Assembly: GCF_000949635.1 (NCBI RefSeq)
Contig: NZ_BAFN01000001.1
Coordinates: 930,001-994,000, forward strand
Reading direction: 5' to 3'
Source of the DNA: Candidatus Brocadia sinica JPN1
Lineage (GTDB): Bacteria > Planctomycetota > Brocadiia > Brocadiales > Brocadiaceae
Length of the DNA: 64,000 nucleotides
Made by a program: the position numbers and the translations under genes. The notes under the pieces were generated by a model that saw only the letters and a program-made list of their open reading frames with translations, made no database searches and was not told the origin of the DNA. Below, piece after piece: positions 55,377 through 56,354 of the stretch (positions are counted from its first letter, which is position 1; each line of letters begins with the position of its first letter).

Positions 55377-56024
55377 TCAATCCTTTACAAAAGAAACCTT
55401 CTTTGCCCAAATACTCCCGGGATAATCCTTCTTGATTTTCTTCCACGCGTTTAGTAATGCGTCCACGTTATGGACGGCCTTATATTCCGAAACACCAAAC
55501 CAATATTGTGCTTCCGGAGCAACATTGCTCTTAGGATATCTATCCAACACCCACTTTAGTTGGACGCCGGCACTCTTGTAATCCTGTTTTTGCAGTGACA
55601 TAAAGCCCAATCCGAACTGCAATTGTGGTATAAATTCGTCAGGAGGCAAAAACCCATAGAAGCGATAATATTCGGTTCCCAGGGAATCCAAAATAACGAT
55701 GGTTGGTGTCCAAAATGCCCGGTATTTGTTGAGAATATCCGAACCGCTTTGAACGTTGATTTGCAGAGGAATGAATTTTTTACTGACGTAATCTACAACT
55801 ATGGCATCAGGGTACGTCACGGTACCCAATGTTTTACAGCCTGTTCAGGTGGGTGCAAAGAAGTCTAACAAGACAGGCTTTCCCATTGTCTTTGCCTTTG
55901 TAATCGCATCTTCAAGGGTTTTTTCCCATACAATAGACGGCGGTATGTTTTTGGTTTCTGCGGCAAGTGATACTGCAAGGGGTGCTACGAATAAAATAAG
56001 ACATGGCAAAACGTATTTTAACAT
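55377..56024 (-). CDS. Secreted thioredoxin-like protein with in-frame TGA at a UxxC site (candidate selenoprotein)
   Basis: The ATG at 56024 follows AAGGAGG at good spacing and opens a signal peptide (MLKYVLPCLILFVAPLAVSL). The frame runs LDFFAPT, then TGA at codon 60 (55845-55847), then TGCKTLGTVTYPD in the same frame with no shift, continuing to 55377 (215 codons in all). Thioredoxin-fold relatives have CxxC exactly here, so TGA replaces the first redox Cys: Sec-Thr-Gly-Cys. The cis-Pro (FWTPTIVIL) and a C-terminal TPR-like region are intact. A 6-bp stem with loop CGUGAC follows the TGA at 17 nt. Cys-to-stop mutation is the alternative. Confidence 0.7.
55810..55827 (-). promoter_or_regulatory. 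SECIS-like hairpin downstream of the in-frame TGA
   Basis: In the mRNA, GGGUAC (55827-55822) pairs with GUACCC (55815-55810) and the loop is CGUGAC, with G in its second position. It starts 17 nt after the UGA. An outer GGC/GCC pair could extend it. Bacterial SECIS elements are short stem-loops at this distance with a G near the loop start. Confidence 0.5.
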
Positions 56025-56354
56025 GACCATCCTCCTTTTTCAAAATGTGGCAGGATAGATTAAAAATACATACAGAACCTATAACACAATATTTTTCCAG
56101 AGTCAACAAAAAATATTCTGTAGCATACTATGCATAAACAAACACGCATCCTTGTTTGGTGCCTACATACCAATTATACCACTAACAATTCAGGAGAACA
56201 ATCCTTGCCTCTTCAGTATTTATTATAGTACAATATTTTTCGTTGTATCAGATTTATCTTTCCGAAATACCTTGAATCCTAAATGCAACGGTATAGAAAG
56301 ATTCGATGAAAAGGAATTTTCATGGTCCGATTTGTAGCTTTCGGAGTTAAAAAC
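56025..56354. other. Divergent intergenic region between the thioredoxin-like gene and the porCD-like gene
   Basis: An AT-rich stretch that should contain two divergent promoters. No gene, repeat or clear consensus promoter was recognised. Confidence 0.4.

Follow-up and report, generated by a model that had tools for sequence, protein, structure and literature searches.

A thioredoxin-like gene of Candidatus Brocadia sinica JPN1 that contains one in-frame TGA is almost certainly an intact selenoprotein gene and not a broken one, judged from sequence comparison, and this is the best explanation of the locus as a whole. The gene lies on the minus strand of the window, the 64,000-nucleotide stretch of DNA analysed here (bases 930001-994000 of the main contig; the genome measures 4.08 Mb). 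We place high confidence in the reading of its UGA as selenocysteine (Sec), which the initial annotation had proposed and which is supported by the machinery genes, by the conservation of TGA or Cys in relatives and by a covarying hairpin; our confidence in the function of the protein is modest. What the sequence data establish are the open frame, the conservation of the TGA, the exchange between Sec and Cys, the covariation of the hairpin and the presence of the machinery genes. The features of the locus are as follows.

55377..56030, minus strand: whole predicted selenoprotein gene, 217 codons plus terminal TGA (from the frame, Pfam, homologues and the structural model)
55953..56030, minus strand: probable Sec-type signal peptide, approximately residues 1-26 (MVMLKYVLPCLILFVAPLAVSLAAET), called by eye in a low-confidence part of the model
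55845..55847, minus strand: in-frame TGA, putative Sec codon 62 counted from the ATG at 56030 (from the alignment of TGA and Cys homologues)
55836..55838, minus strand: codon of the putative resolving Cys65 of the UxxC motif, invariant across alignment A1
55810..55827, minus strand: SECIS-like hairpin GGGUAC-CGUGAC-GUACCC (from covariation and the bSECIS constraints)
55377..55379, minus strand: true terminal stop, TGA here and TAA or TAG in many orthologues

The gene and its predicted protein

From the ATG at 56030 the frame has 61 codons before it meets the TGA at 55847-55845, and it then stays open to the terminal TGA at 55379-55377, so that exactly one internal stop, a TGA, occurs in 217 codons. 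The single continuous frame that had been claimed earlier, with no strand given, is thus borne out on the minus strand (56030..55377); the placing of the TGA at codon 60 holds when counting from the alternative start ATG at 56024, which is the third residue counted from the ATG at 56030 and makes the same TGA codon 62. The read-through protein has 217 residues (MVMLKYVLPCLILFVAPLAVSLAAETKN...LLDFFAPT-U-TGCKTLGTVTYPD...WTPT...), and in its motif DFFAPT-U-TGCKTLGTVTYPD the TGA stands, as had been noted, at the first Cys position of CxxC, giving the active site U-T-G-C. The mechanical list of open reading frames cuts the gene into a 61-aa and a 150-aa ORF, the latter from a TTG, which is the kind of splitting that had been expected of gene callers. 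When U is replaced by C, the read-through protein passes the Pfam cut-offs of Thioredoxin_7, Thioredoxin_2, Thioredox_DsbH and Thioredoxin (the PF13098 match scores 44.3 bits against a cut-off of 27, and the UxxC motif is present); neither the 61-aa nor the 150-aa fragment alone reaches the curated Pfam cut-offs.

An AlphaFold2 model of the protein (pLDDT 89.6) shows a thioredoxin fold followed, from around residue 130, by a helical TPR-like tail. In the model UTGC at residues 62-65 opens a helix (63-72), and the WTPT loop takes the cis-Pro place, with W107 and P109 invariant; residues 1-26, whose signal-peptide look was judged by eye, are the only low-confidence part. Sequence profiles point to DsbD for the thioredoxin part and to CpoB/YbgF for the tail. 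The gamma domain of DsbD (PDB 1uc7, 2fwe-2fwh) superposes on the thioredoxin part over 118 columns with an rmsd of 1.9 Å, a TM of 0.75 of target and 29% identity, but it has Cys and not Sec, is part of a membrane protein and lacks a TPR-like tail; the full DsbD architecture is absent from the window protein, which matches NF001419 in the gamma domain only (48.4 bits against a cut-off of 330). YbbN/CnoX (PDB 3qou) gives the best Foldseek E-value and shares the order of domains, thioredoxin followed by TPR-like helices, but at 15% identity, a TM of 0.30-0.38 and an rmsd of 12 Å overall the domain order alone is alike, and YbbN/CnoX has a tail of another size and no Sec.

We propose that SelB with Sec-tRNA-Sec would bind the hairpin 17 nt past the UGA, and that this binding would place Sec at the UGA in lieu of termination. 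The product would be a probably exported thioredoxin-fold oxidoreductase with a U-T-G-C site, most like DsbD-gamma, and its most likely task outside the cytoplasm is to reduce or exchange disulfides, or similar oxidised thiols; the selenolate would be the nucleophile and Cys65 the resolving residue, and the C-terminal TPR-like domain may grip partner or client proteins. We infer an exported thiol/selenol oxidoreductase from the predicted fold, the profiles and the signal-like N-terminus, and the actual insertion of Sec, the export and the reaction are put forward here as predictions.

A more specialised role for the Sec-containing product, for example in keeping the cysteines of apocytochrome c reduced for haem attachment or in the handling of peroxide, metals or selenium, is possible but rather unlikely. 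Multihaem c-type cytochromes are numerous in anammox bacteria, and a probably exported protein whose thioredoxin part is closest to DsbD-gamma would suit such a role; yet no conserved neighbours point to any such function (comparison of the neighbourhood returned genus-level synteny with housekeeping genes only, and no functional operon), and some members of the family, the paralogue L051 for one, lack a signal peptide. Reduction or exchange of disulfides is the role that we prefer.

Selenocysteine machinery and the internal codon

The initial annotation had made its reading depend on the machinery of the genome, and selA, selB, selD and tRNA-Sec are all present: the tRNA-Sec scores 67.8 bits with anticodon TCA, SelB 378.8 bits, SelA 561 bits and SelD 363.6 bits. 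The full set is there, and the window gene is not its sole client, as SelD is encoded with an in-frame TGA of its own; the selD gene (G000:C1:1828841-1829767; L049:1501-2427, minus strand) is itself a selenoprotein gene, with the TGA at the catalytic place (GGUAGK).

In 41 distinct homologues from relatives, TGA occupies the internal position 40 times and TGC once, whereas the terminal stop of the 38 TGA genes with their end present is TAG in 15, TAA in 12 and TGA in 11; a fixed internal TGA beside a drifting terminal stop sets the internal codon apart from a stop. The named near relatives (76-80% protein identity) are Candidatus Brocadia, and the family is found also in Geobacter, Syntrophaceae, Desulfomonile, Nitrospirota, Acidobacteriota, Chloroflexota and Actinomycetota, with TGA in nearly every case. 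This dominance of TGA was not forced by the scan of named genomes, because its pattern was placed away from the TGA, although the query was the Sec form. A tRNA-Sec was found in most genomes that carry the TGA form, and those without one are partly incomplete assemblies.

Alignment of the homologues thus finds the codon kept as TGA or Cys in an otherwise conserved gene; other replacements are few and occur in distant Desulfobacterota relatives, and the unrelated replacements with decay of the rest of the gene that would have spoken against the earlier claim did not appear. Cys stands at the aligned codon in G048, from the same order (CSGC), a genome in which tRNA-Sec and SelB both went undetected, and in the Desulfobacterota loci L204 (CVGC), L207 (CVGC) and L209 (CGGC). 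The genomes of L204 and L209 contain tRNA-Sec, so in Desulfobacterota having Cys at this codon does not depend on the machinery being lost. A further Desulfobacterota branch (L198-L203, L205 and L206) has CxGS or a Cys-less active site in genomes that often contain tRNA-Sec, and its redox site seems to have been lost or altered. In L127, which is placed inside the Sec clade, both U and C are gone and tRNA-Sec is present; we take it to be a recent loss.

Of the 27 Brocadiaceae genomes with signals of tRNA-Sec, SelB or both, 24 carry a TGA form of the family, a count in which G002 and G003 are included by their paralogue and not by an orthologue of the window gene; a TGA form occurs in none of the six genomes that show neither signal (five near-complete, one 58% complete). 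Fisher's test, in which genomes are treated as independent of shared ancestry, gives p = 7.6e-5, which becomes 2.8e-4 once the incomplete genome is dropped. The three genomes with machinery signals and without the gene are G005, G012 and G031. G002 and G003 carry 5'-truncated remnants of the window gene (L053 and L054, respectively) and have kept tRNA-Sec, SelB and the second paralogue; remnants in the presence of tRNA-Sec and SelB indicate that the window gene is dispensable for some.

That the UGA encodes a residue other than Sec (Trp or Cys, through a changed code or a suppressor) is very improbable. Nothing specific favours it, although natural insertion of Cys at UGA under low selenium is possible in principle; against it, orthologues end in TGA, TAA and TAG interchangeably, and the window gene itself ends in TGA, the Sec machinery is present, and the nearest non-TGA forms have Cys at the redox site. 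A changed genetic code was set aside on this comparison of homologues, and Sec is retained as the residue predicted at the codon.

The SECIS-like hairpin

A perfect 6-bp stem (GGGUAC/GUACCC) around the loop CGUGAC starts 17 nt after the TGA, and the stem with a G-containing loop described at that distance in the initial annotation is confirmed at 55827-55810. Published constraints for a bSECIS are a loop of 3-9 nt with a G in loop positions 1-2, an upper stem of 4-16 bp, a UGA-to-loop distance of 16-37 nt and a minimum free energy of at most -7.5 kcal/mol (PMC13188914); the hairpin of the window, with a 6-nt loop, G at loop position 2, a 6-bp stem, a distance of 23 nt and -9.2 kcal/mol, lies within all four. 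Folding energy is weak evidence by itself (z = -2.1 over 26 nt; z = -1.0 over 56 nt, not significant), and since the value for the longer stretch is not significant, the case for the hairpin rests on covariation.

All six stem pairs are kept in 105 of 114 distinct TGA sequences, and the observed pairing was never matched by shuffles. In 34 distinct sequences, with a further pair within the loop included, 99.2% of cells are paired (85.7 +/- 1.5 when shuffled; 58% in the best slid version) and covariation scores 0.454, compared with 0.191 +/- 0.021; this set was chosen by hand and omitted sequences deviating from the common stem, so that the 96.8% of cells paired in the six stem pairs of the unselected 114 is the fairer figure. 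Compensatory changes are seen in the third stem pair, which is A-U or G-C, and in the fourth, which is U-A or A-U. The pair within the loop (positions 26/29, with the T of TGA as 0) appears as CG, AT, GC, GT or TA around GU and is formed in 93.9% of the 114 (shuffled mean 47%, maximum 65%), having been spotted by eye in the alignment and then tested on those same sequences.

As the hairpin overlaps coding triplets, its pairing links the choice of a residue, Gly (GGT) or Asp (GAT), to the spelling of a Tyr (TAC or TAT), and 98 of the 114 sequences have GAT/TAT or GGT/TAC. Synonymous change is 0.02 and 0.08 at codons +7 and +10, compared with 0.3-0.8 at other codons. In 13 non-TGA homologues the pairing is mostly absent (41% of cells paired), L127 being the lone one with five of the six pairs. 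The hairpin deviates in nine of the 114 TGA sequences; some of these, among them L045, L090 and L095, in which CGGC-UGGAU-GCCG or CAGC-UGGUU-GCUG was noted by eye a few bases upstream, may use a shifted replacement hairpin. A terminator-like call made by a pattern scan on the other strand (55810-55827, plus) is read as a by-product of the palindrome.

The hairpin also bears on the possibility that the TGA is a real stop, followed by a second protein of at most 150 aa made from the TTG at 55829 by coupled, hairpin-regulated reinitiation. The TTG lies 15 nt downstream of the TGA, as such a scheme would need, but we give it very little weight: the split would cut both the active-site motif and one folded domain of the model, the Cys homologues are single continuous proteins, the loop, length and spacing of the hairpin are as in a bSECIS, and no TAA or TAG replaces the TGA among the aligned TGA members, so it was set aside on homologue comparison. 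The least probable reading of all, a nonsense mutation or sequencing error in a decaying thioredoxin-like gene, could appeal to the remnants without a 5' half in G002 and G003 and to the two ORFs of the gene caller, but is refuted by a TGA at the identical codon in dozens of species that were sequenced independently and belong to several phyla, by purifying selection past the TGA (dN/dS 0.08-0.23 within the genus) and by the covarying hairpin. On the counts given above, with TGA in 40 of 41 homologues, these dN/dS values and covariation beyond shuffles, a chance origin of the observation is excluded, and a gene read through with Sec is the interpretation that we carry forward.

Family members and known relatives

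The genome contains a second Sec paralogue (G000:C1:3366194-3366760; L051:1216-1782, plus strand) with UIGC in 189 aa, no signal peptide and a hairpin of its own (GGAUAC/GUAUCC). In a quick tree, of moderate support in the part around L051 and with a root for drawing only, the window gene falls in a mainly planctomycete clade and L051 inside a Desulfobacterota/Nitrospirota branch, which suggests that this second copy was gained horizontally. Tandem gene pairs occur in three other Brocadiaceae (L055 in G024, L056 in G030 and L057 in G013), with TGA in both copies and UTSC or UASC in the second. A distant thioredoxin with a TPR-like tail in a Zixibacteria MAG (L140:4896-5759, plus strand) carries a TGA (DFYTDW-U-KWC); its genome has a tRNA-Sec, and the protein possibly represents another Sec branch.

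A selenoprotein named 'thiol:disulfide interchange protein' was reported in 2006 from Syntrophus aciditrophicus, Geobacter metallireducens and G. uraniireducens (PMC1794560), and was entered in 2026 as PF13098 with a UxxC motif and the representative WP_011366075.1 (PMC13188914). It resembles the window family in its PF13098 domain, its UxxC motif and its hosts (Geobacteraceae, Syntrophaceae), the likeness being one of domain, motif and hosts, and no Planctomycetota were named; as host groups and domain fit, the kind of protein is already known. TsoB (NF045694) and the VPGUxxT proteins (NF041382, NF041383) show weak similarity in the thioredoxin domain only and differ in architecture and motif: against the TsoB, VPGUxxT and Trx7/PDZ models the window protein scores 59.6, 35.9, 25.9 and 20.2 bits for cut-offs of 805, 275, 350 and 300, respectively, and in seven further members of the family the TsoB and VPGUxxT matches are also far under the cut-off. 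No model covering the family was present in NCBIfam as of June 2026, and the family is therefore probably split in routine annotation. Selenoproteins are known from other planctomycetes (PMC4807772); for anammox bacteria we found no report of them in the open literature, most subscription journals lying outside the search.

We regard as evenly balanced the broader proposition that these proteins form a distinct, nearly Sec-fixed family with a thioredoxin domain and a TPR-like tail across Planctomycetota, Desulfobacterota, Nitrospirota, Acidobacteriota, Chloroflexota and others, that one covarying SECIS is shared across the phyla, and that the anammox members are the first selenoproteins described from such bacteria. 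The family is widespread, consists of nearly all Sec forms and has been mostly overlooked, being likely split or lost in routine annotation. Its hairpins offer a clean natural data set for recognition by SelB, in which the two loop bases on either side of a nearly fixed GU covary. For the organisms themselves, the result points to selenoproteins, of which one is probably exported, in the anammox bacteria. These are responsible for a large share of oceanic nitrogen loss and are used in wastewater treatment; if they make selenoproteins, the supply of selenium may matter to them.
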